64,000 bases of DNA from a virus, in IMG/VR virus record IMGVR_UViG_3300022916_000007, positions 28,740 to 92,739 of that record. One strand, written 5' to 3'. The notes under the pieces were generated by a model. The model was not told where the DNA came from. It saw nothing but the letters and a program-made list of their open reading frames with translations, and did not search any database. Shown here piece by piece: positions 43,315-64,000 of this stretch. Each line of letters opens with the position of its first letter. Within the stretch, counting starts at the first letter, position 1. The position numbers and the translations under genes are program-made.

Positions 43315-43530
43315 TTATTTAATTTTCAATTCTTTTTCGGTCCAGACAAAGTACAACAATCCATTTTTCTTACAATATTTTTTTGCTGCTTTTTCTTTTG
43401 CTTTTACCATTAAATCGTCAAGCAATCTTTTTGGTTTAATTTCGATTAATTCTTTTGTACCATCATTATATTCTATTAAAAGGTCTGGGAAATAGCATCT
43501 TTTCTTTTTATAATAATCTAATATATTTTT
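43315..43530 (-). pseudogene. PD-(D/E)XK nuclease remnant
   Basis: An open frame without start codon reads KKRCYFPDLLIEYNDGTKEL, then IEIKPKRLLDDL, KAKEKAAKKYCKKNG and LLYFVWTEKELKIK before a stop. The order 'Y-x-P-D ... (I)E-I-K ... Y ... T-E' is that of PD-(D/E)XK nuclease cores found in free-standing phage endonucleases. It is only about 70 codons, with the N-terminal part missing, so it is a decayed gene. Confidence 0.65.
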
Positions 43531-43543
43531 CTAATAAGCTCAT
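43508..43543 (-). pseudogene. orphan 11-codon N-terminal tag (MSLLEKYIRLL then stop)
   Basis: ATG 43543 reads MSLLEKYIRLL and then TAA. The DNA is nearly identical to the first 33 bases of the eight tag-bearing paralogues, but continues into the nuclease remnant in another frame. It marks a deletion or recombination breakpoint exactly at the repeated tag sequence. Confidence 0.65.
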
Positions 43544-43552
43544 TTTTAATAT

Positions 43553-44860
43553 TTATATTTCTGATAATCCCATCTCACTTCTTCTTTTATTTAAACTATT
43601 TAAATTTTCTTTAGCATATTGCACCACTTTCTCATCTTTATCTTTCATTAACTTTTTAAATACAGATAGCCAGCCAGTCATTAATGATAAGCTCATTTTA
43701 ACATCCTTACTCTCATCTTCAGCCAACATTAAAGCAATATTTTCAGGCAAATTTGGTCTTAAAGCGATCTTCTCTCTTACTTGTTCTATTGGAAGTTTTA
43801 CTAACCTCATAGTAACTACTTCTCTATCAGTCTTACCCAAATAAACATTGACAATTTTAAAGGCAAGCCTTAAATTCCAACCATTATTATCCTTACTATA
43901 GTTTTTTCCATAATATTTATCTATAATTGCAATTAAGTCTTCATTTGTAAAATCATGACTAGCATTATTATGTTCACTTACCATCACAATCAATTGATCA
44001 TAAGAAACATTTAGAAACACTGTTCTCCTTAGTTCTTTTTTGTTAACAAGTGATAATATTATACTTGAATTTGAATCCAAGTCATTTTCTTGTATAGTTT
44101 TTAATATTTCTGGATCTTTATTTTTTATTCCGTTTTCAAGTTCTTTGTTGTATTTTGAGCTTGGTTCTTCTGTTACACTATTAAGCATCCTATTATTTAT
44201 TACATCATATCTTTTCTCTCCCAAATAATCACTTACTTTGGCTGGAGAGATGGTATCGTCCCATGCGTCAAATATTTCAAAGTCACCATCTTTATTTGTT
44301 GCAACTGCAATTTTATACAATGGATCATGATCATTTTTTGAAAAACCTTTTTTTATGATATAGAAAAATACATTATCTCGCCTAGAATATTCTATAAACC
44401 TATTATCTTCTTTACCTGAAATACACCATTTTGTTTCTGATCCGTATTTACAAGCAGCTTCTTTTGTGTTTACCCTCAATACAATAAACTCTTCATCTTC
44501 ATATATTTTTTCTGCCCCCTTGGAAATCTCTATCCTTTTCTGTCTTTTAGAACCTACCGGAACTTTTAACAACTCATCCTTCAATTGGTATAAATGCTTA
44601 TATTTATTAATATCTCTTTTATCTTTTGGCAACCTATTTTTAACCTTATGAAACTTATTAATTATGTTTACTATTGATTCATAATTGTTTGAATATTTAA
44701 TAAATTGATCTGCCATCCACATTAAATATTTGTTATTGCCTGAAGGATCTTGTTTAGACATCATTTCAATTTCACTACCATAATTAGGATATCTTTTTTT
44801 AACATCGTCAACCCTTGATTCAATTAATAATAATCTAATATATTTTTCTAATAAGTTCAT
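43553..44860 (-). CDS. putative internal head protein: [L/I]-x-E tag + CxYGxxTKWC domain + helical repeats
   Basis: 435 residues. Tag MNLLEKYIRLLLIE-S (predicted cut after Glu14). Linker with DPSGNNKYLMWM (38-49) and LPKDKRDINKYKHL. Domain with EDEEFIVLRVNTKEAACKYG and TKWCISGK (C137, C146), then VFFYII and KIAVATNKDGDFEIFDAWDD. The C-terminal half is helical with short HEAT-like units (LPIEQVREKIALRPNLPENI, DKDEKVVQYAKENL). It overlaps the MORN paralogue upstream by 4 bases. Head packaging is inferred from the tag; the domain's activity is unknown. Confidence 0.75.
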   Translation of the reverse strand: MNLLEKYIRLLLIESRVDDVKKRYPNYGSEIEMMSKQDPSGNNKYLMWMADQFIKYSNNYESIVNIINKFHKVKNRLPKDKRDINKYKHLYQLKDELLKVPVGSKRQKRIEISKGAEKIYEDEEFIVLRVNTKEAACKYGSETKWCISGKEDNRFIEYSRRDNVFFYIIKKGFSKNDHDPLYKIAVATNKDGDFEIFDAWDDTISPAKVSDYLGEKRYDVINNRMLNSVTEEPSSKYNKELENGIKNKDPEILKTIQENDLDSNSSIILSLVNKKELRRTVFLNVSYDQLIVMVSEHNNASHDFTNEDLIAIIDKYYGKNYSKDNNGWNLRLAFKIVNVYLGKTDREVVTMRLVKLPIEQVREKIALRPNLPENIALMLAEDESKDVKMSLSLMTGWLSVFKKLMKDKDEKVVQYAKENLNSLNKRRSEMGLSEI

Positions 44861-45936
44861 TTTTTTAATCCCTTATAATACTCTTCTTTCTTGTCAAGAC
44901 CTACCTTTTGCCAGTATTTATCTTCTGGATATTCCATGCCATTTAACCACCATTCTTTATGGCCGTCAGAATATTCAACAGCAGGACCATCGGTTCGATG
45001 ACGCTTTCCATTTAGATACCATGCTTTTGTCCCATTAGGCCGAACTATTGCAGGGCCATCAGTTCTATGGCGCTTTCCATTTAGAAGCCATGCTTTATAT
45101 CCATCAGCCCGTTCAACAGCAGGGCCATCAGTTCTATGACGCTTTCCATTTAAATACCATTCTTTTCTACCATTAGGCCGAACTATTGCAGGGCCACCAA
45201 TTCGATGACGCTTGCCATTTAGAAACCAATGCCTTCCCCCGTCGCCCCTCTTTATCACCCCCGTAAGCGGAATATACTTAAATATCGAACTTGAAATGTT
45301 ATATTGTTGCAATTTGTCTTCCAACCAACTTAACCTTTCTCCATTATCCCCAGAATCAAATATCTCTTTGTTATTATGCTCATCAACTGCAACTGCAACC
45401 TTCTCCCCACCATCCTTCGGTAATATGTAATATAATGTGACTTCTTCCAAATAATCATCAAAGTAACTCGAATCATCTTTTGATGCTGTACACCATTTGG
45501 TATTACTTCCATAATAACAACTGGCCTCATGAGTCTTCGGAATTAATACCACAACTTCATCATTCTCAAATACGATATCTGCACCTTCCCTCTTTACGGC
45601 CTTTTTTTGCTGTCTCTTTGATTTATCTGGAACTTTACTTAATTCACTTTCAAGATCACTTAAGCTGTTATATTTATATAAATCCCTCTTGTCACCCTTC
45701 AACCTTTGTTGATTTTTATAAAATTTGTTAACTAGATCAATTATTAACTCATAATCATTATTGTTTTTATCATATTGGTCCATCATCCACATTAAATATT
45801 TGTTATTTCCAGAAGGATCTTTTTGTGCCAAAAGCTTTATTGAGGGAACAGTATGATAATTAGAATATTTCTTTATAACATCTTCTAACCTTCCCTCAAT
45901 CAATAATAATCTAATATATTTTTCTAATAAGTTCAC
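44857..45936 (-). CDS. putative internal head protein: [L/I]-x-E tag + CxYGxxTKWC domain + MORN-variant repeats
   Basis: 359 residues. Tag MNLLEKYIRLLLIE-G, linker DPSGNNKYLMWM, domain with EASCYYGSNTKWCTASKDD, VTLYYILPKDGGEKVAVAVD and EIFDSGDNG, then four 23-residue WYLNGKRHRTDGPA repeats and the end WWLNGMEYPEDKYW. The domain is the same as in 43553-44860 but the C-terminal module differs. Stop overlaps the next start (ATGA). Function unknown; delivery with the DNA inferred. Confidence 0.75.
   Translation of the reverse strand: MNLLEKYIRLLLIEGRLEDVIKKYSNYHTVPSIKLLAQKDPSGNNKYLMWMMDQYDKNNNDYELIIDLVNKFYKNQQRLKGDKRDLYKYNSLSDLESELSKVPDKSKRQQKKAVKREGADIVFENDEVVVLIPKTHEASCYYGSNTKWCTASKDDSSYFDDYLEEVTLYYILPKDGGEKVAVAVDEHNNKEIFDSGDNGERLSWLEDKLQQYNISSSIFKYIPLTGVIKRGDGGRHWFLNGKRHRIGGPAIVRPNGRKEWYLNGKRHRTDGPAVERADGYKAWLLNGKRHRTDGPAIVRPNGTKAWYLNGKRHRTDGPAVEYSDGHKEWWLNGMEYPEDKYWQKVGLDKKEEYYKGLKK
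44953..45228 (-). repeat. four tandem 69-bp (23-aa) MORN-variant repeats
   Basis: Codons 237-328 of the paralogue hold four exact 69-bp units (W-x-L-N-G-K-R-H-R-x-x-G-P-A-h). DNA identity between units is high, so copy number can change by slippage or recombination. Confidence 0.88.
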
Positions 45937-45939
45937 CTT

Positions 45940-46230
45940 TTATTCTTTCCCTCTTTTCATAACCAACTTATCTAAATGTTCTGGTCTTACTTTTTTATCA
46001 AAAGCTTTATTTCTTTTTGCCTCTTCAGAAAATTCTTTTAACGCATTTGATATTGCTGAAGATAATGATATCCTCTCTTCAGTTGTAAAATAACCTAAAG
46101 ATGCAAGATCATCAGCAACTACTGTATATGCTTTGTGTATTTTTGATTGCATTAACTCTGCAATTGTTGGAGAACCAATCTCTTCTAATAACAAACTTTC
46201 AATAATTAATTCTAATTTATTATTATTCAT
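45940..46230 (-). CDS. small putative head-packaged protein with [L/I]-x-E tag
   Basis: 96 residues: MNNNKLELIIESLLLE-E, the same tag logic as its neighbours (LLE at 14-16). The rest is helical (TIAELMQSKIHKAYTVVADD..., EEAKRNKAFDKKVRPEHLDK). Ribosome site GGGGAGA. Body unrelated to the KWC domain. Function unknown. Confidence 0.65.
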   Translation of the reverse strand: MNNNKLELIIESLLLEEIGSPTIAELMQSKIHKAYTVVADDLASLGYFTTEERISLSSAISNALKEFSEEAKRNKAFDKKVRPEHLDKLVMKRGKE

Positions 46231-46252
46231 TTTTATTTTTATCTCCCCTTAA

Positions 46253-46753
46253 CTATTTTTCCGCAGGCCATCCGTTAGTTGCTCTTTTTTCAAGAGCCGC
46301 AATAAAAGCTTCAGGGTTGTCAGCAAAAGATGATACTGCCTCTACTTTACTCTCAAAAGTTTTATGTTTTTTTGACAAAGTTTCCCAATATTTTTTTATC
46401 CTTTCTTGTGGCCATGAATCAAAGTCAGGCTTTTCTCCACCATATGGTTTTGATATCTCACTTAGATCTTTTTTTTTATTTTCTGCAATTTTTCTATGAG
46501 CAACATCCATTGCAGTCATTTGTGCTCTTTTTGCTAAATTATGAAGAGCCTCAATATCATCAGCCAACCTACCCTCTCTTCCACCAACACCTTCTGGGAA
46601 GGCTGTCATTATTAGATCTAATTCTGAAGATATCCCCTCTAAAGCACTCGCAACCTTCTCAGGATCTTTATACTCTCCATACTCTTTTAAGCACTTTTTT
46701 GTCTCTTCTTTTATAATCTTCCTTAACTGCTTTTTTTTCATTTTAACTTTCAT
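46253..46753 (-). CDS. small putative head-packaged protein with basic [L/I]-x-E tag
   Basis: 166 residues. Lysine-rich amphipathic start MKVKMKKKQLRKIIKEE followed by CLKE-Y, giving a possible cut after Glu24. The body is helical, with DDIEALHNLAKRAQMTAMDV in the centre. The basic tag is of the same kind as in 36088-36432. No recognised domain. Confidence 0.62.
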   Translation of the reverse strand: MKVKMKKKQLRKIIKEETKKCLKEYGEYKDPEKVASALEGISSELDLIMTAFPEGVGGREGRLADDIEALHNLAKRAQMTAMDVAHRKIAENKKKDLSEISKPYGGEKPDFDSWPQERIKKYWETLSKKHKTFESKVEAVSSFADNPEAFIAALEKRATNGWPAEK

Positions 46754-46777
46754 TTTTTATCCCCTATTATATTTTTA

Positions 46778-47098
46778 TTATTCAAGTTCATCAATTGTAT
46801 CTTGCATTGTATGCATTGAGCCACCCATCCAGTCATTTTCCTTGTCTAGCGCACCTTCAATATGTGCGGCCCACTGCCTTCTCGCCCTCTCATATATCCC
46901 CCTATCATCATCAGCATTACGAATAATATGTTTTGCTTCTTCAACCAACTCTTTCATTTTGTCTTTAATATTTAAAAGCTGTTCAATTGCATCACCATAA
47001 TCATCACCATCATCACCGTAATCATCAAACTCTTCTTTTATAATTTTTTTTATAACAGCCCTTACTCTGCTTTCAGATAACTTTATTTTCTTATTCAT
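46778..47098 (-). CDS. small putative head-packaged protein with [L/I]-x-E tag, acidic body
   Basis: 106 residues: MNKKIKLSESRVRAVIKKII then KE-E (IKE). A very acidic stretch DDYGDDGDDYGD follows, then two helices. Ribosome site AGGAGAAA; 4-base overlap with the HNH gene upstream. Function unknown. Confidence 0.62.
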   Translation of the reverse strand: MNKKIKLSESRVRAVIKKIIKEEFDDYGDDGDDYGDAIEQLLNIKDKMKELVEEAKHIIRNADDDRGIYERARRQWAAHIEGALDKENDWMGGSMHTMQDTIDELE

Positions 47099-47400
47099 TT
47101 TTTTTCTCCTATTATATGTACTTTTGGATCTTCACTTACAATTTTTTTATCATCACCCTCATATCTCCAAACAACAACATTTCCTTTTGTGCTATTAAAC
47201 CTACCTTCAATAATAACTTTTCCTAAATGAACATTTCTATGACAATTACAACAAATATTTACAATATTATATTTTTTATTTTCTCCCCCAAAACACCTTG
47301 ACTGAATATGATGCTTGTCAAGGCCATTAGAAAAACTATTACATATTTCACATATTTTATTTTTTATTGTCATTCTTATAATACTCTTCTTTCTTGTCAA
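47095..47400 (-). CDS. small HNH endonuclease
   Basis: 101 residues with a compact HNH core: CEICNSFSNGLDKHHIQSRC, then NIVNICCNCHRNVHLG. It overlaps the end of the paralogue upstream by 44 bases from the first ATG, or 17 from the ATG at 47373. Probably a free-standing homing endonuclease inserted into the tag-gene cluster. Only a nuclease core is present; a DNA-binding domain is not obvious. Confidence 0.75.
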   Translation of the reverse strand: MTRKKSIIRMTIKNKICEICNSFSNGLDKHHIQSRCFGGENKKYNIVNICCNCHRNVHLGKVIIEGRFNSTKGNVVVWRYEGDDKKIVSEDPKVHIIGEKK

Positions 47401-48571
47401 GACCTACCTTTTGCCAGTATTTATCTTCTGGATATTCCATGCCATTTAACCACCATTCTTTATGGCCATTAGAATCTTCAACAGCAGGACCATCTTTTCG
47501 ATGTTTCCTTCCATTTAAATACCAATGTTTTGTTCCATCAGCCCGTTCAATTGCAGGACCATCTTCTCGATGAAGTTTTCCATTTAGATACCATGATTTT
47601 GTTCCGTCAGGATGTTCATAAGCGGGGCCGTCAGTTCGATGACGCTTTCCATTTAAGTACCATTCTTTTGATTCATCAGAGTCTTCAATAGCAGGACCAT
47701 CTTTTCGATGAAGCTTTCCATTTAGAAACCAATATTTTGTTCCATTAGGACGTTCAATAGCAGGACCATCTTCTCGATGAAGCTTTCCATTTAGATACCA
47801 TCGTTTTTTTCCATTAGGGTGTTCATAAGCAGGGCCATCAATTCGATGAAAATAGCCATTTAGATACCACAATATTGTCCCATCATCCTTTCTTATCATC
47901 CCCGTAAGTGGAATATACTTGAATGTTGAACTTGGAATGTTATATTGTTGCAACTTACCTTCCAGCCACCATAACCTTTTTCCATTATCCCCAGAATCAA
48001 ATATCTCTTTGTCATTATGCTCATCAACTGCAACTGCAACCTTCTCCCCACCATCCTTCGGTAATATATAATATAATGTGACTTTTCCTAAATAATTGTC
48101 AAAGTGACTTGAATCATCCTTTGAAGCTGTACACCATTTGGTGTTGCTTCCATAATAACAACTTGCCTTGTGAGTCTTGGGGATCACAACTGCAACCTTG
48201 TCATTCTCAAACACAGTATCTGCACCTTCTTTTTTTATAATCTTCTTTTGTTGCCTTTTTGACACATCTGACACTTTACCCATCTCATCCTTTAATTGAT
48301 GTAAATGTTCATACTTATAAAGATCTCTTTTGTCTTTTGGGAGTTTATTCTTAACTTTATGAAACTTGTTAACTGTGTCTATTATTGATTCATAGTCATT
48401 TAAATGATCAGCAAATTGTCCCACCATCCACATTAAATATTTGTTATTACCTGATGGATCTCTTCTAGACATCATTTCAATTTCACTACCATAATTAGGA
48501 TATCTTTTTTTAACATCGTCAACCCTTGATTCAATTAATAATAATCTAATATATTTTTCTAATAAGTTCAT
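47357..48571 (-). CDS. putative internal head protein: tag + CxYGxxTKWC domain + six MORN-variant repeats
   Basis: 404 residues. MNLLEKYIRLLLIE-S tag; DPSGNNKYLMWM; KASCYYGSNTKWCTASKDDS; KVAVAVDEHNDKEIFDSGDN; six repeats from Trp235; end WWLNGMEYPEDKYWQKVGLD. First 110 residues are nearly those of 43553-44860 whereas the domain and tail match 44857-45936, so it looks like a recombinant of the two types. The start overlaps the upstream stop by 4 bases. Confidence 0.75.
   Translation of the reverse strand: MNLLEKYIRLLLIESRVDDVKKRYPNYGSEIEMMSRRDPSGNNKYLMWMVGQFADHLNDYESIIDTVNKFHKVKNKLPKDKRDLYKYEHLHQLKDEMGKVSDVSKRQQKKIIKKEGADTVFENDKVAVVIPKTHKASCYYGSNTKWCTASKDDSSHFDNYLGKVTLYYILPKDGGEKVAVAVDEHNDKEIFDSGDNGKRLWWLEGKLQQYNIPSSTFKYIPLTGMIRKDDGTILWYLNGYFHRIDGPAYEHPNGKKRWYLNGKLHREDGPAIERPNGTKYWFLNGKLHRKDGPAIEDSDESKEWYLNGKRHRTDGPAYEHPDGTKSWYLNGKLHREDGPAIERADGTKHWYLNGRKHRKDGPAVEDSNGHKEWWLNGMEYPEDKYWQKVGLDKKEEYYKNDNKK
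47456..47869 (-). repeat. six tandem 69-bp (23-aa) MORN-variant repeats
   Basis: Codons 235-372: exactly 6 x 69 bp, the longest array in the window. Units are of two flavours (KLHREDGPA and KRHRTDGPA) interspersed, suggesting shuffling between paralogues. Confidence 0.88.
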
Positions 48572-49641
48572 TTTTTTAATCCCTTATAATACTCTTCTTT
48601 CTTGTCAAGACCTACCTTTTGCCAGTATTTATCTTCTGGATATTCCATGCCATTTAACCACCATTCTTTATGGCCGTCAGAATATTCAACAGCAGGACCA
48701 TCTTCTCGATGACGCTTTCCATTTATCCACCATGTTTTTATTCCATCAGGATGTTCATAAGCAGGACCATCAGTTCGATGACGTACTCCATTTAAATACC
48801 ATGATTTATGGCCGTCAGAATATTCAATAGCAGGGCCGTCAGTTCGATGACGCTTTCCACTCAAATACCATCTTTTTGTTCCATCAGGATGTTCAACAGC
48901 AGGACCGTCAGTTTGATGAAGCTGTCCATTTAGATACCATAATATTGTCCCATCATCCTTTCTTATCATTCTAGCAAGTAAAATATACTTAAATATCGAA
49001 CTTGGAATGTTATATTGTTGCAACTTGTTTTCCAGCCAACTTAAACCCTTCTTATTATCCCCAGAATCAAATATCTTTTTATCATTATTCTTGTAAACTG
49101 CAACTGCAATCTTCTCCCCACCATCCTTCGGTAATATGTAATATAATGTAACTTTTCCCAAATAACTCTCAAAATAATTTAAGTTTTTCCTTGAAGCTGT
49201 ACACCAACTGGTGTTGCTCCCATAATAACAACTTGCCTTATGAGTCTTGGGGATTACAATCAACACCTTATCGCTTTCAAATACAATGTCTACGCCTTCT
49301 TTTTTTATAGCCTTCTTTTGTTGACTTTTTGATTTATCTGTAACTTTACTCAACTCTTTCCCAAGATCACTTAAGCTGTTATATTTATATAAATCCCTCT
49401 TATCACCTTTCAATCTTTGTTGATTTTTATGAAACTTGTTAACCAAATCAACAACACTCGCTTCATTTTCCCCACCATCAACAACTTGTTGAGTCATCCA
49501 TAAAAGATATTTGTTGTTGCCTGACGGATCTTGACTAGACAAATTGTTAACAAGATCTTTGTTGTTAAGATATTTATTCCGAACATCCTCCAACCTTCCC
49601 TCAACCAACAACAATCTAATGTATTTTTCTAATAAGTTCAC
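48568..49641 (-). CDS. putative internal head protein: tag + CxYGxxTKWC domain + four MORN-variant repeats
   Basis: 357 residues. Tag MNLLEKYIRLLLVE-G; DPSGNNKYLLWM; KASCYYGSNTSWCTASRKN (the Lys before Trp is Ser here); EKIAVAVYKNNDKKIFDSGDN; four repeats; end as in the siblings. It abuts 49642-50079 and overlaps the next gene by 4 bases. The K-to-S change in an otherwise invariant motif may indicate a relaxed or inactive copy. Confidence 0.75.
   Translation of the reverse strand: MNLLEKYIRLLLVEGRLEDVRNKYLNNKDLVNNLSSQDPSGNNKYLLWMTQQVVDGGENEASVVDLVNKFHKNQQRLKGDKRDLYKYNSLSDLGKELSKVTDKSKSQQKKAIKKEGVDIVFESDKVLIVIPKTHKASCYYGSNTSWCTASRKNLNYFESYLGKVTLYYILPKDGGEKIAVAVYKNNDKKIFDSGDNKKGLSWLENKLQQYNIPSSIFKYILLARMIRKDDGTILWYLNGQLHQTDGPAVEHPDGTKRWYLSGKRHRTDGPAIEYSDGHKSWYLNGVRHRTDGPAYEHPDGIKTWWINGKRHREDGPAVEYSDGHKEWWLNGMEYPEDKYWQKVGLDKKEEYYKGLKK
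48664..48939 (-). repeat. four tandem 69-bp (23-aa) MORN-variant repeats
   Basis: Codons 235-326, four units with exact 69-bp period, including a WWINGKRHREDGPA variant. Confidence 0.87.
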
Positions 49642-50079
49642 TTATTCACTCTCACCCAACACCCTCTCAATTGCAACAATAACAAACTTGATCTTCTCAA
49701 TTCCAGCTTTAATATGAGCAATAGAATCCCCACCACCTTCAACCTTGTCACCAATCTTATTTATAAAAGAAATCATGTTCTCTGAAAGGTTGTGCAAATA
49801 ATCATAATCAATATCCTTTGTTGGTAAAAACGATGTTTCATCAAAATCCAAATATTTATCATCAACCATGTTTGAAAAGGTTTCGTATAGATCTCTTATA
49901 TTATTTAATGCATATTCCAAATGTCGATCAGATTTATATAAAAAATATTTATCAATATTATTTGAATATTTGTTCAAAAAATCCTTTACATTTCGCTTTA
50001 AAAAGCCTGTGTTGTCCTTGTAGTACTCATCCATACCTTCTAATAAAACAAGCTCTATGAACGAATTTAAATTTTTCAT
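49642..50079 (-). CDS. putative head-packaged protein with [L/I]-x-E tag
   Basis: 145 residues: MKNLNSFIELVLLE-G, tag of the same length and pattern as the large paralogues (predicted cut after Glu14). The body is all-helical, with two long amphipathic helices. It has no KWC domain. Function unknown. Confidence 0.68.
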   Translation of the reverse strand: MKNLNSFIELVLLEGMDEYYKDNTGFLKRNVKDFLNKYSNNIDKYFLYKSDRHLEYALNNIRDLYETFSNMVDDKYLDFDETSFLPTKDIDYDYLHNLSENMISFINKIGDKVEGGGDSIAHIKAGIEKIKFVIVAIERVLGESE

Positions 50080-50128
50080 ACCTATTTTAAGTCCTTATAT
50101 ATGCAATAAAAAATGCATAAAAATATAG

Positions 50129-51220
50129 TTAAGAGTCAGTTTGTTTTTTATTGTTGTAATTGTTATAATACTCTTCTTTCTTGTCAAGGCCTACCTTTTG
50201 CCAATATTTATCTTCTAGATATTCCCTTCCATTTATCCACCATTCTTTATGGCCGTCAGAATATTCAATAGCAGGACCATCTTCTCGATGAAGCTGTCCA
50301 TTTAGATACCATTCTTTTGATCCATCAGGCCACTCAAGCGCAGGACCATCTTCTCGATGCAACTTTCCATTTAGATACCAATGTTTTGTTCCATTAGAAT
50401 ATTCAATTGCAGGTCCGTCAGTTCGATGAAGCCTCCCATTTAACCACCATTCTTTTGATTCATTAGGATGTTCATAAGCGGGACCATCAGTTCGATGAAG
50501 TTCTCCATTTAAATACCATTCTTTTGCTCCATCATTTCTTTCTATCATCCCCGTCAACAGAACATACTTAAATGTCGAACTTGGAATGTTATATTGTTGC
50601 AACTTGTCTTTCAGCCAACTTAAATTCTTTCCATTATCCTTAGAATCAAACACCTTTTTATCATTATCTTCATCAACTGCAACCGCAACCTTCTCCCCAC
50701 CATCTTTTGGTAAAATGTAATATAACGTTACTTTTCCTAAATAGTTATCAAAGTGACTTGAGTTGTCCTTTGAAGCTGTACACCACTTCGTATTGCTTCC
50801 ATAATAACAACTGGCCTTATGCGTCTTGGGGATTAATACCACAACTTCATCATTCTCAAATACAATGTCTGCGCCCTTTTTCTTTACAATCTTCTTTTGT
50901 TGACGTTTTGACACATCTGACACTTTGCCCATCTCATCTTTTAATTGATATAAATGTTCATACTTATAAAGATCTCTTTTATCTTTTGGGAGCTTATTCT
51001 TAACTTTATGAAACTTATTAACTGTGTCTATTATTGACTCATAATTATTTATATGATCAATAAATTGTCCCACCATCCACATCAAATATGCATTGTTATT
51101 AGAGGGATCGTTCTCAGACATTGTTTGTATAAACCCACCATAATCAGGATACTTCTTTTTGACATCACCAACTCTTGATTCAACCAACAATAATCTAATA
51201 TATTTTTCTAATAAGTTCAT
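50129..51220 (-). CDS. putative internal head protein: tag + CxYGxxTKWC domain + four MORN-variant repeats
   Basis: 363 residues. Tag MNLLEKYIRLLLVE-S; DPSNNNAYLMWM; KASCYYGSNTKWCTASKDNS; KVFDSKDNGKNL; four repeats; end WWINGREYLEDKYWQKVGLD plus a short extra tail. It is the first of this tag-gene run after the Vsr-like endonuclease. Function unknown, delivery with phage DNA inferred. Confidence 0.75.
   Translation of the reverse strand: MNLLEKYIRLLLVESRVGDVKKKYPDYGGFIQTMSENDPSNNNAYLMWMVGQFIDHINNYESIIDTVNKFHKVKNKLPKDKRDLYKYEHLYQLKDEMGKVSDVSKRQQKKIVKKKGADIVFENDEVVVLIPKTHKASCYYGSNTKWCTASKDNSSHFDNYLGKVTLYYILPKDGGEKVAVAVDEDNDKKVFDSKDNGKNLSWLKDKLQQYNIPSSTFKYVLLTGMIERNDGAKEWYLNGELHRTDGPAYEHPNESKEWWLNGRLHRTDGPAIEYSNGTKHWYLNGKLHREDGPALEWPDGSKEWYLNGQLHREDGPAIEYSDGHKEWWINGREYLEDKYWQKVGLDKKEEYYNNYNNKKQTDS
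50243..50518 (-). repeat. four tandem 69-bp (23-aa) MORN-variant repeats
   Basis: Codons 235-326, exact 69-bp period, units WYLNGELHRTDGPA, WWLNGRLHRTDGPA, WYLNGKLHREDGPA and WYLNGQLHREDGPA. Confidence 0.87.
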
Positions 51221-51236
51221 TATATATAATTATCAA

Positions 51237-52373: not shown

Positions 52374-52385
52374 TTAAAACCCCCC

Positions 52386-52412: not shown

Positions 52413-52447
52413 CATCAATTAACATTTATTTTAAGAAACAATCATCC

Positions 52448-55387: not shown

Positions 55388-55442
55388 TATTATTATCTCC
55401 TATCAATATTATATATTTAAATATCTCCACTAATTAATTTAA

Positions 55443-58283
55443 TTATGCAAATTCAACACCAGCATTTGTAATAACAAAATCGATACTAATGAATTCTGCC
55501 GCCTTTGTTGGGGCCAAGTAGATCATCCCCTTCATCACATAATTTTCAACATCAGACTGTGAAGTTGTGGTATCATCCATGACAACCTTGAACTTCTCTA
55601 ATCCTGACTGAGATTGTACACGTTCTAAAATAGGATTAACCATAGAAACAAAACGTTCCCATGTGCTAAAAGTATTTGGCTCGAAAAGCAATTTCTGTGC
55701 AACAGACTTGACTGCTCTCCTAACTTCCAACACCATTCTTCGGACATTAACACGATCAAGGGCAGATTGTGCAGCTTGAAGTGTTTTCTGACCAAGAATT
55801 AAAACACCCTCTTTAGGGAACTGTGCAATTGGATTAACATTTGCATCATAAAGATCACCACGATCTTTGTGAGTCAATCTAACATCTGCATCTCTAACAT
55901 TAGTTAATCCACCCCTATTAAATCCAGCAGGGGCAAACCAAGGCTGAGCTACTTTATCATTAAACGCAAATGCACCCATCACAACAACTGAAGGCGGAAC
56001 AGTTACTACTTTATTATTTGCCTCGTCATATAAACGAACATCAGGCCAATAAGTTGCAGCAAAGTTTGTATCAAGGCCTCTTGTCTCCAATTGACTAATC
56101 GTATTTTCAACTGATGGCCTACCACTTCCTGCGACATCTTGCCCAACTGGATTATCAAAAATTACATCACCATCTTCATCAACATTTTCAGCATCCATAA
56201 TATAGAAACAATCAAACCTGTCCTCAACGGCATCTACTGCATAGTCAGTAACCAATCCATCTCGAATATCAGGAATTGCTAACAAGTTTGTATCTACATT
56301 TTCTGGATTTGCAACAATATCAATTGCAGTTCTATATGACTTAACTGTATTACAATCCAATGAATTACCATGAACAACATTTCTCACAGTGAACTCAGTT
56401 GCTTGCATATCATCATCTCTCATTAGACGTGAATTTTTATCTAGCATATCTGTGCCATCAAAACCACCATAAAAGAAGAATGAGAATTTAGCTACATTTG
56501 CAAACTTATTTAGATAAGTTGAGTCTGGTTTGAATGCATTTGAAGCTGCAAGATCATAAGTTCCTTTATATTGCCAATATTTTGCATCTGACAATTTTGA
56601 AGAAGACCCTGCTGTATCAATTTTTTCTAATGAGAATTCATTATACCAACTACCAACAGTTGCGCTATAATCATTCATATTTGAACCAGACAACAATACA
56701 TCTTGTCCGGCATGATTAATTCCCATAAACCTAGCCATACTATCTAGACAATTATTATGTTTTAATGAGGCATTAATATAACCATCATCTCTTCCTGACC
56801 ACACACTTTCTGCTGAGCCTGAAGCTCTTTCAAAGTGTACACCCCAATGTAGTTTTGTGTTAAGGGTTTTGTTTGTGCTAGACTTTTTACCCACGTTAAC
56901 CCTAAATGGGATTGGAGGGATGGTCGAATCAATAATTGTTGCTTCATCACCAAAGAGCCTATTTTTTGTATGCATTAATGGATATCCCTTAAATCCCCAT
57001 GGAAGGGCATCGGTTGGAACCACACCATTTTTAAGATCATTACTTGGAATTACTCTGATATGAGTTGATCTGTTTGCATAATCACCATCTACTACTAACC
57101 TTCTTTCGTCATCATCACTTTGATCCCAATCAAAATAAATACTTTTATCTCCAATTCTTCTAATGATATAATTTTCTGAATTTGGGTTAAGATCTAAGTT
57201 TGTATGTTGTTCCATAATAACTGGATCGTTATCTGTATCATCAAACTTTCTTACCACTAAAGTAAAGGTTCCATAAAGTTCGGTATCAGAAACAGGCCTT
57301 CTTACATTTGTAACAGAGATCTTAATATTTTCATTAGCCCATTTTCCATCAGAAAGTGACTCAAAATAGAAAAGATCATACTTTCTTGTACCAAATCTTT
57401 GTGAAATAACATAAGGAGATTTTGAAGTTGTATATCTACTTTGATAATCACCATATTTTTTATCCCAATTTTCGCCAGCATCAATATGTGAACCACTAAG
57501 AATTTCTACAGTTTTGCCTACAGTAGTCGCACGTTCAATATCAACAGGGAAGTCAAGGTAAAGTAAGTGCCTTTCTGTGCCAAATAAATCTGGATCAGTA
57601 TTGAGGGTATTACCAACATACTCAGTATCTGATGGGTTTAATGATGCACTTAATTTTCTAACATTAAGACTACCAGCAACATTTCCACCAGTCCAATCTG
57701 ATGATGAAGAAATAAACAAGTGAAACTTGTTACCTGTTGCCGTACAAGTATCATTAAAAGTTTCTAGGTTAGCAATTGGAACATCATCTTCAGTGGTATC
57801 TGCAACCCTGATTCTTGTTGAACCACTTGTCATAATGACGGCTCTCACCAAGTTTGCTGATGAATCTTCTGCTGAGCCTGAAGCTTGTCCAAGGAATTGT
57901 GAATCTGTAGTGTCTGTATGGTTTGCACAAAGGAATTGTACCCTTCCATCACTACCAGAAAGCAAAAAACCAGCATTGGAAACTGTACCATCAGTTGCAC
58001 TAACTGCTGCTGTTCCACCACCCAAAACTCTCATATAAACGCCAGATGTGCTACTCCTTAAAAACTCTCTCATTGCATATGGACCATAATAATCAGAGTC
58101 CAAATCACCAAATGTTGCAACAAAGTCTTTCCATTGAGCAAATAGTACTGGTACAAAGGCAGGCCCTTTTTCTGCCGTACCTACAACAGTACCAGGAGTA
58201 CCAAATGGTTTAATCTGAGTTGGGGTTAATTCGATTTCAGTCTGAAAAATACCAGGACTTCTAAATGTCTTCTCTGTTGCCAT
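55443..58283 (-). CDS. tail sheath protein, T4 gp18-like (copy 2)
   Basis: 946 residues, with the same start (SPGIFQTEIELTPTQIKPFG) and the same C-terminal domain as copy 1 (NDKVAQPWFAPAGFNRGGLT, GQKTLQAAQSALDRVNVRRM). The middle is much more different. Stretches of C-terminal DNA are almost identical between the copies (for example around 52750 and 55745), suggesting gene conversion. Either mixed sheath polymers or two alternative sheaths. Confidence 0.92.
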   Translation of the reverse strand: MATEKTFRSPGIFQTEIELTPTQIKPFGTPGTVVGTAEKGPAFVPVLFAQWKDFVATFGDLDSDYYGPYAMREFLRSSTSGVYMRVLGGGTAAVSATDGTVSNAGFLLSGSDGRVQFLCANHTDTTDSQFLGQASGSAEDSSANLVRAVIMTSGSTRIRVADTTEDDVPIANLETFNDTCTATGNKFHLFISSSSDWTGGNVAGSLNVRKLSASLNPSDTEYVGNTLNTDPDLFGTERHLLYLDFPVDIERATTVGKTVEILSGSHIDAGENWDKKYGDYQSRYTTSKSPYVISQRFGTRKYDLFYFESLSDGKWANENIKISVTNVRRPVSDTELYGTFTLVVRKFDDTDNDPVIMEQHTNLDLNPNSENYIIRRIGDKSIYFDWDQSDDDERRLVVDGDYANRSTHIRVIPSNDLKNGVVPTDALPWGFKGYPLMHTKNRLFGDEATIIDSTIPPIPFRVNVGKKSSTNKTLNTKLHWGVHFERASGSAESVWSGRDDGYINASLKHNNCLDSMARFMGINHAGQDVLLSGSNMNDYSATVGSWYNEFSLEKIDTAGSSSKLSDAKYWQYKGTYDLAASNAFKPDSTYLNKFANVAKFSFFFYGGFDGTDMLDKNSRLMRDDDMQATEFTVRNVVHGNSLDCNTVKSYRTAIDIVANPENVDTNLLAIPDIRDGLVTDYAVDAVEDRFDCFYIMDAENVDEDGDVIFDNPVGQDVAGSGRPSVENTISQLETRGLDTNFAATYWPDVRLYDEANNKVVTVPPSVVVMGAFAFNDKVAQPWFAPAGFNRGGLTNVRDADVRLTHKDRGDLYDANVNPIAQFPKEGVLILGQKTLQAAQSALDRVNVRRMVLEVRRAVKSVAQKLLFEPNTFSTWERFVSMVNPILERVQSQSGLEKFKVVMDDTTTSQSDVENYVMKGMIYLAPTKAAEFISIDFVITNAGVEFA

Positions 58284-58405
58284 ATTATTTTTTCTCCCAA
58301 TATATAATTACATTTTTATTCATTATTTAAAAAACTTAAAATAATGCTTATTATTAAGTATGTTTACACTTAATTGAAATGCCAAAAAATTTTTAAGAAA
58401 ATTAA

Positions 58406-59563
58406 TTAATTTGCAAAAAAGTCGTCAAGCTGCTCAACATCATTAAAAAACCAAACTTTCTCTGAAGCTTTTTTTGTTTTATTTTTATTTTTATGTGATG
58501 AGTCTCCACCTTTTCTCTTCCGTATCTTTCTATTTGCCTTTCTCCCCATCTTTGATAACTCATCCACTTGATCAACATCATCACCCAGCTTATCTGGATC
58601 ATATAACGTTGAAGAGCCGTTGCCATCAAAAGTTTCAAACCTTAATTGAGGGGCATTCACCATTTTTGTTATTGGCACACTTTCACTATCAGTTGCACCC
58701 ATAATATAAGCCATAACCTTAACAGTAAACACACTTTTAACTAGTCTTTCTGTGTCTGAAAAATCGTCTTTGTTTGATTGATTTACAATATTTTTCTCTA
58801 GAATAGCAATATAATAATATCCTTTGTCAGTATCTAGTTTTATTGAATTCTTCCAATCACATCCCCTTAACACACTTTCAACAATTGTATTGTTTTGAGT
58901 TGAATATTGTGTCCATACAATTACCTCATAAGTTATTGTAACAAAATCTGGGAACCCCATTGAGTATATCTCATATATATTTCTTGGGTTTAACTTTGAT
59001 TGATTGATTTGCTTTCCCTTATACAACACTCCATTAAATGGTTTTCCTGGAGGTGTTCTTCTTGATCCTTCTTGATCACTTTCTGTTGAGCCAGATAAGT
59101 GTACATTCTTTTGGTTAATTAAGCCTGTTTGGTTAATTAGGTTTTGGTAGTTTGGATTGTCTGCCCCTATCTTTCTTTTTATTATTAGCTCCCCAAAATC
59201 ACCTGGAATGCCATGCATGTCTTCTGTTTTTTCTGTGTCTCCCTTGCTAACTGTTATTAGTGGAAGTATTAACCTACCATCACCATCTCTTAGTGGCTTT
59301 CTTTTTCTTACTAATGCCCACCTTTCTCCAGTTGCAAACATGACAGGAACTTTTTTACTTTCCTTGTTAATCTTTAAAAATATATTTAAGCTCTCGTCAA
59401 AATGATTATATATTGCTTTATCAATATCTTTTATTGTTGATGAAGGTAATACAAAGTCTTCTGTTGTTGTACCAGGACGATCCTTTACATTTTCATTTTT
59501 AACCCTTTTGTTTGAAAATGTTGGGCTTTCTCCCCTTTGTAAGTAATCTTCTCTATTAGGCAT
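58406..59563 (-). CDS. putative neck / tail completion protein (gp15- or gp3-like candidate)
   Basis: 385 residues directly upstream of the sheath genes. AIYNHFDESLNIFLKIN, PVMFATGERWALVRKRKPLR, GRLILPLITVSKGD and, later, YEIYSMGFPDFVTITYEVIV with WTQY recall T4-like tail-terminator/sheath-stabiliser proteins ('FPD-x-A-x-V-x-Y...W-T-Q-Y'). The C-terminus is basic (GRKANRKIRKRKGGDSS). The assignment rests on pattern and position only. It overlaps the gene upstream by 8 bases. Confidence 0.65.
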   Translation of the reverse strand: MPNREDYLQRGESPTFSNKRVKNENVKDRPGTTTEDFVLPSSTIKDIDKAIYNHFDESLNIFLKINKESKKVPVMFATGERWALVRKRKPLRDGDGRLILPLITVSKGDTEKTEDMHGIPGDFGELIIKRKIGADNPNYQNLINQTGLINQKNVHLSGSTESDQEGSRRTPPGKPFNGVLYKGKQINQSKLNPRNIYEIYSMGFPDFVTITYEVIVWTQYSTQNNTIVESVLRGCDWKNSIKLDTDKGYYYIAILEKNIVNQSNKDDFSDTERLVKSVFTVKVMAYIMGATDSESVPITKMVNAPQLRFETFDGNGSSTLYDPDKLGDDVDQVDELSKMGRKANRKIRKRKGGDSSHKNKNKTKKASEKVWFFNDVEQLDDFFAN

Positions 59564-60848
59564 ACTTTTCTAGCCTCTCTTTTTCTGGTGTTTCCTTATA
59601 TCTATCATATTCGTCTTTATAATCTCTTTCAATAATTTGTTTCAATGCCCGTTCCCTAACAATTAAACTGTTATCATAATAAGCTAGCCTAAATAATGCA
59701 TTCATTGGAGTATAGCTAGACCACGCCAACACTTCCCTAACCTTACTACACTCACCACTTAACAATATATCAATAACCCCTTTATCTTTCATAGCAACAA
59801 TGTTTCTAATTAACTGAAACTTAACATACTCATGATCGTCCTTAGACAATTCTCTTAAGATATTAATTGGAGTTTTTTCATTTATAGCAATCCCGGCCCT
59901 CACTTGAAAATTATCATGATTTGACAACAACTTCATAGCTTTTATTGTCAGTGATGGGTTTCCTGTTAACGGCAACAAAACTTCAGGATAACTTTCATAC
60001 CCTGCCAAATATTCTAAAACATTACCTTGTGTGTTAAAATCACTAGCTAATCGTATTTTATATGAAGTACCTAATTTCATAACATTTTTTGGATTATTAT
60101 TTATCTCTTCCATAAACTTTTCTTTACAAACAGACTTTGAATTTTTTGCCCAATTTACATTAATTCTTGCTAATGCTTTTGATATAGAGTTGTCAATTTC
60201 AGGAGTTTCGGCCTTTGATAACAAATCTAATACATGAAATTTTGTATCAGTTGCATCAAATGTTTCATCCCTTCCATCAGTACCAACAGCAATTGCAACC
60301 TTTGCATACTTATCATGAGGGGCTTTACTTATAAGATCTTTGTTAAGTAAAAAATAAAACACAACATTATCCATAGAATATTGTATAAACCTGTTATCTC
60401 TTTTTGCTGAAATGCACCATTTTGTTCCTGCACCATATTTACAAGCAGCATCCTCTGTGTTTACCCTGAAAGCTAATACATTATCATCTTCATAAACCCT
60501 TTCTACGCCACCTTTTGAAATATCTTTTTTTTGCTGCCTTTTTGAAGTTATAGCTATATTGTCAAGAAACGCACTTAGCTCTTCCATACTAACAAATTTG
60601 TTTATGTCTCTTTTGTCTTTTGGCAACCTTTGTATATTTCTATGAAACTGTTTGACCAACTCAAGCCTATCCATTAAAGGATAATTCTTTTGCCTTACCA
60701 TCCACATTAAGTATTTGTCATTTCCTGACGGATCATTATTAGACAAATATTCTAATCCTGGCTCCTTTAACTCTGGATCAATTTTTTTCGCATCATCAAA
60801 TCTTGATTCAACTAACAGATTTTTTATATATTGTTCTAATAAGCGCAT
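59556..60848 (-). CDS. putative internal head protein: [L/I]-x-E tag + CxYGxxTKWC domain + LRV/HEAT-like repeats
   Basis: 430 residues. Tag MRLLEQYIKNLLVE-S; DPSGNDKYLMWM; DAACKYGAGTKWCISAKRDN; KVAIAVGTDGRDETFDATD. The C-terminal half has repeats such as NHDNFQVRAGIAINEKTPIN and SKVREVLAWSSYTPMNALFR, close to the leucine-rich-repeat-variant pattern. It sits between the ADP-ribosyltransferase-like gene (adjacent upstream) and the neck gene. Confidence 0.75.
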   Translation of the reverse strand: MRLLEQYIKNLLVESRFDDAKKIDPELKEPGLEYLSNNDPSGNDKYLMWMVRQKNYPLMDRLELVKQFHRNIQRLPKDKRDINKFVSMEELSAFLDNIAITSKRQQKKDISKGGVERVYEDDNVLAFRVNTEDAACKYGAGTKWCISAKRDNRFIQYSMDNVVFYFLLNKDLISKAPHDKYAKVAIAVGTDGRDETFDATDTKFHVLDLLSKAETPEIDNSISKALARINVNWAKNSKSVCKEKFMEEINNNPKNVMKLGTSYKIRLASDFNTQGNVLEYLAGYESYPEVLLPLTGNPSLTIKAMKLLSNHDNFQVRAGIAINEKTPINILRELSKDDHEYVKFQLIRNIVAMKDKGVIDILLSGECSKVREVLAWSSYTPMNALFRLAYYDNSLIVRERALKQIIERDYKDEYDRYKETPEKERLEKYA

Positions 60849-61640
60849 CTATCTAACCTCCCTCCTAAACAGATCAGCAACGTCTTTTTTAGATATATGT
60901 TTGCCCACATTACTTATGAGTCCATATGGGATAATACAAACCTCCTCACAATTAATAGGCCCTAATGAAATAACTTCACTTTCTTGTCTCATTAAATTCG
61001 AACTATGTACATGATGAGGAAAGAACTCTTTATATTTGCCCTTATACTTACCACTTAAGTAGTAATTATATGGCTTAATTTGCCTATAATCAAACAGAAA
61101 ATTATTATTAGCAACATTGGCCTTATATATTACATAAACAAGATTTTTATTAGAATATATATCTCTATAAAATCTATTATAAAGATAAACAGAAAAACCT
61201 AATGCCGTTCTTTTTTTATAAGACCATGAAGAAATCATTTTTCTTGGTTCATATACATAATTTTCAATTTTAACAACTAGATTTTCAGTAGTTATTTCAT
61301 CAAAAATATTGTTTCCAAACATTTCCTCTGCCAAAGTAGTTGATAGTTGCATACCACGATAAACTTTTCCAAGCTTTGGCTTCAAAACATCCTTATATAA
61401 ACCCTGATCCATCATATCTTTTAACTTATCAAGCTGCTTCAAAAACTTAGCACTTATACGACGATCTTGCACCCAATCAGACAAAGCTTTATATAACTTT
61501 CTTTCCTCATCAACATCTTTTTCTGGATTTTCTTTTGTTGGCAGACCCCTCGGCTCTCCAAACAAATATTTACCATACAGCCCATTAACTAACTCCCTCT
61601 CAATTAAGTTTTTTATATATCGTTCTAATATGTCCATCAA
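60849..61640 (-). CDS. putative head-packaged ADP-ribosyltransferase (Alt-like), R-S-ExE
   Basis: 263 residues. Tag MMDILERYIKNLIE-R, then a helical region and an ART-like catalytic layout: KVYRGMQLS (Arg95), MISSWSYKKRTALGFS (S-x-S at 138-140) and RQESEVISLG (Glu220, Glu222 as ExE). This is the R-S-E order of arginine-specific mono-ADP-ribosyltransferases. T4 Alt is such an enzyme, carries a capsid targeting sequence, and is injected to modify host RNA polymerase. Target here unknown. It overlaps the gene upstream by 4 bases. Confidence 0.75.
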   Translation of the reverse strand: MMDILERYIKNLIERELVNGLYGKYLFGEPRGLPTKENPEKDVDEERKLYKALSDWVQDRRISAKFLKQLDKLKDMMDQGLYKDVLKPKLGKVYRGMQLSTTLAEEMFGNNIFDEITTENLVVKIENYVYEPRKMISSWSYKKRTALGFSVYLYNRFYRDIYSNKNLVYVIYKANVANNNFLFDYRQIKPYNYYLSGKYKGKYKEFFPHHVHSSNLMRQESEVISLGPINCEEVCIIPYGLISNVGKHISKKDVADLFRREVR

Positions 61641-62236
61641 TAATCATCATCTTCAGTAAACGGTGAAGTTACACCATGGTCCAACAACCTCTCAATCTTC
61701 CCACCTTCAACCAACTCTCTCCTGTCACCCTCATCTTCATCACCAGCAATCTGTGTAAACGTATCCCTTTCTTCGTCTGTTTCCAGGCTATCTTTATAAA
61801 ACTGACCTTTTCTAACAGACTTACAAATAGCTTTTGTCATAACTTTGTGCTCAGCTTGTCCATAAATAAGGTCTGGTTGTCCTAAATTTATAACTTCAAA
61901 AAATATTGCTCCATATTCAACAAAATCACCCTCTCTCAACTTTATGTTCTTATCTGAAAGATCCTCTTCATGAAAATAAACTTCAATTGAATATTTCTTA
62001 TCCACACCAAAATTTGTTGTTTCAGTTGTTGAACCTTCCCAATTAACCAAACATCTTATATTTATTGGAGTCTCTGTTACCTTTACCTCAGCCTCATCAT
62101 ATAGCTCATCCTTTTTTGTCTTCTCTTCTGATACTGGATGATATATTATCTCTTCTCCAATGATATCTTTTATTAACTCTTTGTTAATATCAGAAATAAG
62201 CTGAAGCTCTCTTTTTGTTATAAATAATCTACCCAA
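61637..62236 (-). CDS. putative virion (neck or head-tail) protein
   Basis: 199 residues. A central beta-rich domain (YSIEVYFHEEDLSDKNIKLR, EGDFVEYGAIFFEVINLGQP, then DLIYGQAEHKVMTKAICKSV, RKGQFY) is followed by an acidic disordered tail. From memory the 'G-D-h-V-E-Y...h-x-E-V...I-Y-G-Q' pattern occurs in structural proteins of marine myoviruses. The opening helix could also carry a tag (IIGE near 25-28), less convincing than in neighbours. Confidence 0.6.
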   Translation of the reverse strand: MGRLFITKRELQLISDINKELIKDIIGEEIIYHPVSEEKTKKDELYDEAEVKVTETPINIRCLVNWEGSTTETTNFGVDKKYSIEVYFHEEDLSDKNIKLREGDFVEYGAIFFEVINLGQPDLIYGQAEHKVMTKAICKSVRKGQFYKDSLETDEERDTFTQIAGDEDEGDRRELVEGGKIERLLDHGVTSPFTEDDDY

Positions 62237-62315
62237 TTAATTTGTATTCCAATTAATTTAAATTTACTCTCTATATATTAATTATATTTTAATTTAGGAA
62301 AAACACTATAATATT

Positions 62316-62564
62316 TTAAGCTGCTAAAGTTAATTGTCGTTTGTTATTTTTGAACTCTCTCTCCATTGCAATAACAATGTCTTCAATTAACCCTTGAGCT
62401 TTAATTAAGTTTCTTTTTTCTTCCCCTGAGAATGATAACTGATAGGTTGATAGAAGGTTGACAACTTGACTAAGTGTGCTTGCAACTTTTTTCTTTTTGC
62501 CATTTGTAGTCTCTGTAATTACTTTTAAAATTAGATTTTCAATTTGTGCTTCAGTTAGTTGCAT
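62316..62564 (-). CDS. small putative head-packaged protein with [L/I]-x-E tag
   Basis: 82 residues: MQLTEAQIENLILKVITE-T (ITE), then KKK and two helices (KVASTLSQVVNLLSTYQLSF; LIKAQGLIEDIVIAMEREFK). Helical-hairpin protein with no known family. Located between the neck candidate and the large paralogue 62582-63898. Confidence 0.62.
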   Translation of the reverse strand: MQLTEAQIENLILKVITETTNGKKKKVASTLSQVVNLLSTYQLSFSGEEKRNLIKAQGLIEDIVIAMEREFKNNKRQLTLAA

Positions 62565-62581
62565 TTATTTAACTCTCCCAT

Positions 62582-63898
62582 TTAAAAATTATATTCAATT
62601 GTTTGCATTAGTTTATTATATTCTTCCTCTGTAAAGCTTTGTTTGTGATCTTTTACATAATCATAAACATCCTTTATAAAATACATTGTTGATTTATTTT
62701 CTAACATTAATTTTATTATCTCATATGTTAAATCATCCCTTAGCAACATGTAAGAAATTACATCGTGACTTTGACTTCCCATAGTTATGACATTCTTCAA
62801 TGCATAATAGGGCGTTCTTTCATTCAAAACCGCTGACCTAGCAACCATCCAACTTTGAGTCGCATCATTATAATCAAAAACCATCCTACCCAAAACATCA
62901 ACAGGGGTGTTCTCATGCAGAGCGACTAAAGAGCGAATTGATGGTGGAAATCGTCTATCATCACTTAAGTAAGTTAATAATCTAGGCGTGTTGTTTGAAT
63001 GTGATACCCACTTGTTTATATTGTGAAGAAAAAAATCCATATTATTAAAAACAACTTCTAATATATCCTCTGGCAAGTCCTTATCTTCTAACAAATCGTG
63101 TACTGCGGCATCGTTATAACTATAATCTAAAATTTGTTTCGGATTATTATAAATTTTTTCTACTATTTTATCAACATAATAATTTTTACCTAATTTTTTA
63201 GAATCACTTTCAATTAAATGCAATGCCTTTTCGACCAACATATCATATGGTGGATAATGTTCAATATCACCAACAACATTTCTTTCATTATCTTCAGAGT
63301 CAAATATGTCAACTTTTCCAACATTTGAACCAACAGTATAAACAGCAAAGGCGATCTTGTTTAATACAGAGCCGTCATTTTCTATATTTTTTGCAATCAT
63401 ATAATAAAATATAACGCCCTCTTCTGAATATTTTTCAAAGTGTCTTTCATTTTTACTCGTTATGCACCACTTTGTTCCTGCACCATATTTACAAACAGCA
63501 TCCTTTGTGTCCACCCTTATTAACAAAGCTTCATCATCTTCATATATTTTTTCTGCACCTTCAGAAATTTCTATTTTTTGTTGTCTCTTTGATTTTTTTG
63601 GAAGCTTATCTAACTCTTTTGACAGTTCACTAAGATTTTTATAACTATAAAGATCTTTCTTATTACCTTTCAACCTTTGTTGGCTTTTATGAAATAAGTT
63701 TACTAACTCAACAATATCATCTAAACCATAGCCTGTTGAAGCCTGCTTAACCATCCATTCAAGGTATTTATTATTGCCTGAAGGGTCTTGTTTAGATAAT
63801 AATTCAACTTTATTTGCAATATTAGGATATTTTATCTTTATATCATCAACTCTTGATTCAACCAACAATAATCTTATATATTTTTCTAATAGGTTCAT
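62582..63898 (-). CDS. putative internal head protein: [L/I]-x-E tag + CxYGxxTKWC domain + LRV/HEAT-like repeats
   Basis: 438 residues. Tag MNLLEKYIRLLLVE-S; DPSGNNKYLEWM; DAVCKYGAGTKWCITSKNER; KVDIFDSEDNERNV. The helical C-terminal half includes RFPPSIRSLVALHENTPVDV and AVLNERTPYYALKNVI, the same unit type as in 59556-60848. The start overlaps the stop of the MORN paralogue upstream by 4 bases, repeating the gene-pair junction seen at 44.86 and 48.57 kb. Confidence 0.75.
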   Translation of the reverse strand: MNLLEKYIRLLLVESRVDDIKIKYPNIANKVELLSKQDPSGNNKYLEWMVKQASTGYGLDDIVELVNLFHKSQQRLKGNKKDLYSYKNLSELSKELDKLPKKSKRQQKIEISEGAEKIYEDDEALLIRVDTKDAVCKYGAGTKWCITSKNERHFEKYSEEGVIFYYMIAKNIENDGSVLNKIAFAVYTVGSNVGKVDIFDSEDNERNVVGDIEHYPPYDMLVEKALHLIESDSKKLGKNYYVDKIVEKIYNNPKQILDYSYNDAAVHDLLEDKDLPEDILEVVFNNMDFFLHNINKWVSHSNNTPRLLTYLSDDRRFPPSIRSLVALHENTPVDVLGRMVFDYNDATQSWMVARSAVLNERTPYYALKNVITMGSQSHDVISYMLLRDDLTYEIIKLMLENKSTMYFIKDVYDYVKDHKQSFTEEEYNKLMQTIEYNF

Positions 63899-64000
63899 TT
63901 GTTCAATCCCTTATAATACTCTTCTTTCTTGTCAAGGCCTACTTTTTTCCAATATTTGTTTTCTGAGTATTTTTGATCATTTATATACCACGATTTTGTT
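63895..64000 (-). CDS. C-terminal part of a further tag/KWC/MORN paralogue (partial)
   Basis: The last 34 codons of a gene entering from the right: KSWYINDQKYSENKYWKKVG, then LDKKEEYYKGLNK and TGA. This matches the WWLNGMEYPEDKYWQKVGLD end of the MORN-type paralogues, here with a degenerate final repeat. It is at least the eighth member of the family. Confidence 0.7.
   Translation of the reverse strand, partial: TKSWYINDQKYSENKYWKKVGLDKKEEYYKGLNK

Follow-up and report, generated by a model that had tools for sequence, protein, structure and literature searches.

Leaders resembling T4 capsid-targeting sequences on a large, probably head-borne protein repertoire of an uncultured T4-like phage

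What do the genes crowded at the end of the virus record IMGVR_UViG_3300022916_000007 encode, and why do so many of them begin alike? The window considered here, the final 64 kb of this 92,739-bp record, contains 14 complete genes that encode an N-terminal amphipathic helix with [L/I]-x-E at its end; 13 lie at 43553-63898, where gene calling gives 19 genes (13/19 tagged), and one at 36088-36432. An earlier note on this DNA had described such a set, and all fourteen genes are confirmed, with their N-termini within the window; the gene cut by the edge (63899-64000), which the note had counted among the fourteen, is rather a fifteenth, the gene at 62582-63898 being complete. [L/I]-x-E is the cleavage rule of the T4 prohead protease gp21 (PMC9026906, PMC5694885), and T4 Alt and Ip1-3 are precedents for leader-tagged head cargo (PMC9026906, PMC12373910). 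The tagged genes probably (at roughly 0.8) encode a large collection of internal head proteins fitted with capsid-targeting leaders of the T4 kind; an S77 protease would remove the leaders, and the bodies would be injected together with the DNA.

Seven of the eight large window genes share one domain, named KWC here (CYYGxxTKWC, with an invariant Y-G....W-C core); the earlier description of the bodies as otherwise diverse fails for these genes and stands only for their C-terminal halves. KWC proteins are laid out as a leader, a DPSGNNKYL segment, the KWC domain, and differing C-terminal halves, which in four of the seven window proteins contain YLNGxxHRxDGPA (MORN-like) repeats. The junction of leader and body is [L/I]-x-E↓[G/S/N/D/A] in 59/59 non-redundant KWC homologs (the arrow marks the end of the leader; position P2 is variable), while the leader itself occurs in many sequences and in lengths from 5 to about 49 residues. 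This constancy is not a selection effect, because most homolog loci were collected by body motifs and not by the leader. L149, one of the 59, has the junction MNFLELLKE↓GK and fits the rule, as do KWC paralogs of Salicola phage SCTP-2 from outside the 59 (HILFE↓N, QYLFE↓S). Two homologs in relatives have neither leader nor junction and start near the body, so the leader is a separable module.

Leaders of one kind also stand on unrelated bodies. A common type is found on the KWC genes, the 262-residue gene of the window, and a 77-residue gene of contig G045 (IMGVR_UViG_3300024258_000157), the bodies being non-homologous. A K/R-N-L-I-K-K-I-L-K-E type leader is present on 15 genes of G004 (318 kb; 0.07 expected), with 13 unrelated body families, and on 10 genes of G028 (380 kb; 0.15 expected), with 10 body families; it occurs once in immuto and not in T4, PA5oct, or the S77-negative controls, and the window's contig has two such genes, outside the tagged block. 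Different lineages thus use different leaders with the same site. Pfam searches over 54 other tagged proteins returned three families, with one member each (GP88, L5 gp82, and YodL).

A criterion fixed before genomes were compared ([LI]xE ending at residue 10-24, a helix without P, G, or C, and at least 35% ILVMF) is matched by 19/140 genes of the 92.7-kb contig (13.6%), compared with 2.4% of internal windows; shuffled N-termini yield 6.6 ± 2.3 (about 6.7) matches, and 19 was reached in 0/2000 shuffles. Matches are concentrated in the tagged block (13/19 genes vs 6/121 elsewhere, p = 8e-10), also when MNLLEKYI-type paralogs are excluded (6/12 vs 6/121, p = 1e-4), p-values that are only descriptive because the block had been picked by its motif. 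With about 6.7 of the 19 matches expected from shuffling, an individual small gene could have matched by chance, which does not hold for the entire block. By the same criterion, two other KWC phages give 13.7% and 11.9%, T4 8.0%, immuto 9.2%, and PA5oct 7.3%, and the larger genomes with S77 span 7-14%; no excess is seen in crAss001, phi14:2, and phi38:1, three phages that lack S77 (2.6-3.7%, equal to the shuffled level). These figures leave some room for the view that [L/I]-x-E belongs to the folded body or reflects inherited paralogy, in cytoplasmic accessory proteins that have nothing to do with packaging: many of the matched genes are paralogs that share a leader, the bare [LI]xE motif is frequent and in PA5oct fails to tell virion proteins from the rest, and shuffling accounts for the share just given. 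Such a view is nonetheless very improbable, given a site that stays constant in 59/59 homologs of hypervariable leader length, the leaderless homologs, the sharing of one leader by unrelated bodies, the lack of excess without S77, and a homolog detected by mass spectrometry (below).

Is a suitable protease linked to these genes? G045 encodes a T4-type portal, a terminase, and an S77 protease (S77 E = 2.7e-24), and probably adjoins the window's contig: the two share a metagenome (that of G045 holds another contig 100% identical to the window end), GC content, and orientation, their gene contents are complementary, and each is truncated in a KWC gene. G045 ends after the first 172 codons of its gene, and the window end likewise cuts a KWC/MORN-type gene (63899..64000, minus strand), of which the last 33 residues remain (..TKSWYINDQKYSENKYWKKVGLDKKEEYYKGLN); this may be the same gene. 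S77 of G045 is flanked on one side by a KWC gene with leader MNLLEKYIRLLLAE and on the other by the 77-residue protein, which has an acidic tail like that of T4 gp67 and the leader MNLLEKYIENIIKE; the first 23 bases of this leader are identical to window leaders, and the body is unrelated. The prohead protease, which the earlier note had proposed to seek elsewhere in the genome, is present not only in G045 but in 6/6 KWC contigs above 200 kb searched, as well as in PA5oct and SCTP-2. Peptides of the types MNLLEKYIRLLLVESR and MNLLEKYIRLLLVE↓SR represent the predicted S77 site of the lineage. Major capsid proteins of 12 related contigs, judged from their sequence, have LITE, LISE, LINE, LLRE, or MLNE-type sites at or near the T4 gp23 cut (FLTE65↓A). 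The prohead-protease interpretation of [L/I]-x-E is supported by these capsid sites, and no differing protease site emerged.

Small leader-bearing proteins in relatives adjoin S77 on the side toward Gp23, a position like that of T4 core proteins, and the gp67-like acidic protein of G045 has the same leader as the window genes. With the influence of T4 IPIII on head assembly (PMC9026906), this favors an account in which the leaders do bring the proteins into the prohead and are cleaved there, yet what they bring are components of the core or scaffold (for head size or DNA condensation), which remain in the head or are destroyed and do not act as effectors in the host. The tagged genes of G004, however, are many, scattered, and unrelated in body, which is more accessory-like than core-like; the large tagged proteins have repeat modules and vary between relatives, and the best-studied tagged proteins of T4 (Alt, Ip1-3) act in the host (PMC9026906, PMC12373910). 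A core or scaffold role for the set is, on balance, unlikely. As a separate observation on capsid genes, short open reading frames (132-196 residues) in L021-L024 (G003-G006), beside leader-bearing genes, match pieces of the Gp23 profile, in two cases in swapped order (143-196 and 2-48).

A KWC protein annotated as a virion component is found in Pseudomonas phage PA5oct, which carries S77 and gp23. EST35_0205 (QCG76086.1) begins MKLFEVFTLYE↓DK, with a leader ending in LYE, and is annotated as structural from electrospray ionization tandem mass spectrometry (ESI-MS/MS). Like the window proteins it is a leader-bearing KWC homolog in a phage of this protease and capsid type; it differs in matching at a single place, not in a tandem array, and in its C-terminal part.

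Several results weigh against T4-style head cargo. The annotation of EST35_0205 gives no mature N-terminus. PA5oct proteins detected by mass spectrometry have bare [LI]xE near the N-terminus no more often than the others (11/90 vs 34/253, p = 0.68), and the motif was rejected as a predictor of virion proteins in that phage; a tighter pattern is enriched (7/90 vs 4/253, p = 0.009), as a pattern chosen after the fact. Because of its hydrophobicity cut-off, the criterion also passes over the MKTYQEFIAE-type leaders of T4 itself. In the window's contig, which is incomplete, neither the S77 protease nor Gp23 was found; the Gp23 capsid gene of this phage was not found in G000, G001, G011, G045, or G046 either, and no overlap of G045 with the window's contig was found, so that their adjacency is inferred. 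Several KWC contigs below 200 kb, perhaps fragments, yielded no S77. Given the composition expectation and the PA5oct null result, the motif is weak alone, and the case rests on the comparative evidence.

The neighborhood of the cluster raises a different question. The window contains T4-like tail genes, with a tube match at 42693-43193 and a sheath protein with many phage matches; there are two sheath genes at 52448-58283, and the tagged cluster lies between and beside sheath and tube genes. The tagged proteins might accordingly be tail, baseplate, or adhesion proteins whose MORN-like repeats could bind the host surface, and a homolog detected in virions need not be a head protein. It would be surprising, though, to find a prohead-protease site on tail proteins; there is no tail-family match, and such genes are scattered genome-wide in G004 and flank the protease in G045. 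A tail role is correspondingly very improbable.

For tagged head cargo, comparison with relatives supplies the leader, the site rule, the linked protease, and one homolog in virions; that the leader is cleaved in this phage, that the bodies are ejected, and that they act as effectors are steps that we infer. Synthesis would yield a precursor of each tagged protein, headed by a short amphipathic helix that would bring it into the scaffold core during prohead formation. The S77 (gp21-type) prohead protease would then cut after [L/I]-x-E and release the body inside the head, where it would be packed alongside the DNA; at infection, the body would be ejected into the host. KWC proteins would be the main cargo, joining a domain enriched in viruses to C-terminal modules that vary (MORN-like or helical repeats).

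The KWC domain is common in viruses but hardly occurs in bacterial genomes: at least 570 viral-contig loci have it, against 4 loci in 84,980 species genomes of bacteria and archaea. One of these four cellular loci, L173, has a phage-like leader and a start nearly identical to that of viral locus L130. A phage search with a KWC protein did not return T4. An AlphaFold model of residues 15-215 of the 430-residue window protein (59556..60848), built from 55 sequences, has a predicted local distance difference test score (pLDDT) of 86.5; it has no fold match in the PDB (best E 0.14), where no sequence relative was found either. Its best matches in BFVD are viral proteins, mostly uncharacterised, among them the PA5oct structural protein and Marseillevirus LCMAC201/202 proteins (A0A481YZT2, A0A481Z016, A0A481YW50), one of which is annotated with ankyrin repeats. 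PcfJ-like proteins (PF14284) are marginally similar, with a weak match in 6/56 KWC sequences (best 2.5e-5) and a place among the BFVD fold matches (2e-4); KWC differs from them by its own invariant core. From their abundance in viruses, their repeat modules, and the T4 precedent, KWC proteins are most simply read as host-takeover or counter-defence effectors. More speculatively, and with the odds against it, KWC could lie at the heart of a polymorphic effector system that is carried in the virion and coupled to delivery. Such a system would combine a removable packaging leader, a virus-enriched core domain whose fold is new, and C-terminal modules for recognition that can be exchanged (MORN-like, helical, leucine-rich, or ankyrin repeats); it would have expanded in tandem in T4-like phages and have fold relatives in Marseillevirus-type giant viruses.

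The same YLNGxxHRxDGPA repeats as in KWC C-termini are seen in small leaderless proteins (M..KP.M) at 17439-17798 and 38568-38999 and in several L001 genes; it is possible that these are donors or partners of the KWC C-termini. In a 66% relative, two tandem protein-kinase-like genes (L028:10606-12314; Pkinase E = 3e-7 and 0.002) occupy the position of the window's 262- and 430-residue tagged genes.

How much of this is new? T4 IPI-III and Alt (Straboviridae) likewise have a short [L/I]-x-E leader on unrelated bodies, a gp21/S77 protease, and gp20/gp23-type heads, and T4 Ip1-3, with the same kind of leader, inhibit GmrSD restriction enzymes (PMC12373910); the phages considered here have other amphipathic leader sequences (MNLLEKYIRLLLVE, MKNLIKKILKE), KWC as main cargo, and far more tagged genes, the repertoire exceeding Alt and IPI-III as the earlier note had proposed. 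Giant phages of the phiKZ/SPN3US type resemble the proposed system in that a diverged gp21-like protease trims many head proteins after Glu, and these are ejected; SPN3US propeptides are mostly longer than 100 residues (PMC5694885) and the phiKZ site is S/A-x-E, whereas the leaders here are mostly about 9-25 residues with L/I-x-E. In phage P1, an N-terminal signal directs the capsid-borne defence-against-restriction protein DarB into the head (PMC9024508), with a different head assembly (no separate scaffold reported) and another leader. The literature searched, of incomplete coverage, yielded no description of the leader repertoire or of the KWC family; T4 already shows the principle, and the leader types, the KWC cargo family, and the scale reached among uncultured T4-like phages appear to be new. 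If the head-cargo reading is true, the N-terminal rule together with the presence of S77 reveals the head cargo of uncultured T4-like phages by sequence alone, among it large sets of unannotated proteins that are candidates for host takeover or anti-defence, and KWC, a family of unknown function, gains a testable setting.

The large tagged protein without a KWC domain (262 residues; 60849..61637, minus strand; leader MDILERYIKNLIE↓R) may be an Alt-like ADP-ribosyltransferase: by eye, and by motif alone, VYRG(92)..SWS(137)..ESE(219) resembles the R-S-E type. It has no match in Pfam, PHROGs, NCBIfam, a PDB sequence search, or phage tblastn. Its only relative in viral contigs is an identical copy, so no alignment is available, and the single-sequence AlphaFold model is poor (pLDDT 33) and gives the assignment no support.

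Except for the gene at 36088..36432, all tagged genes of the window lie on the minus strand. Four KWC proteins have MORN-like repeats: those of 359 residues (44857..45936; GTG start; MNLLEKYIRLLLIE↓G), 404 residues (47357..48571; MNLLEKYIRLLLIE↓S), 357 residues (48568..49641; GTG start; MNLLEKYIRLLLVE↓G), and 363 residues (50129..51220; MNLLEKYIRLLLVE↓S), the last with a partial DUF6745 match (E = 5e-8). The 435-residue protein (43553..44860; MNLLEKYIRLLLIE↓S) has no such repeats in its C-terminal half, that of the 430-residue protein (59556..60848; MRLLEQYIKNLLVE↓S) is weakly HEAT-like, and the 438-residue protein is encoded by the complete gene at 62582..63898 (MNLLEKYIRLLLVE↓S). Among the small proteins, the 106-residue product of 46778..47098 (MNKKIKLSESRVRAVIKKIIKE↓E) has a leader like those of small S77-adjacent proteins in relatives (MKKVIKLTENDIEKLVKKIINE), and the 145-residue product of 49642..50079 (MKNLNSFIELVLLE↓G) has an unrelated body; the others have 96 (45940..46230; MNNNKLELIIE↓SLLLE↓E), 166 (46253..46753; MKVKMKKKQLRKIIKE↓E), and 82 residues (62316..62564; MQLTEAQIENLILKVITE↓T). 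The sole plus-strand member, of 114 residues (36088..36432), begins MKLTETKLKKIIKE↓EIKSILE↓SW. Upstream in the contig there are two further tagged candidates, whose positions, counted from the window start, are -20177..-19713 and -19353..-18886.

Untagged genes within the cluster, at 47095-47373 and 51237-52373, are by eye of HNH/homing-endonuclease type, which suggests insertion into the array. Elsewhere in the window, another common N-terminus, MK[VI]R[QT]GFVSNSSS[TS]SF, stands on different bodies at 10829-11332, 11336-11929, and 11944-12285, followed at 12289-14187 by what looks by eye like an Hsp70/DnaK-like protein (GIDLGTSRSAIAV). Many small genes (60-140 residues) share a KxGD[IV][IV]W[VI]-like motif at the N-terminus (8951-9518, 16194-17435, 39048-41370, and many left of the window) and form a large paralogous family.

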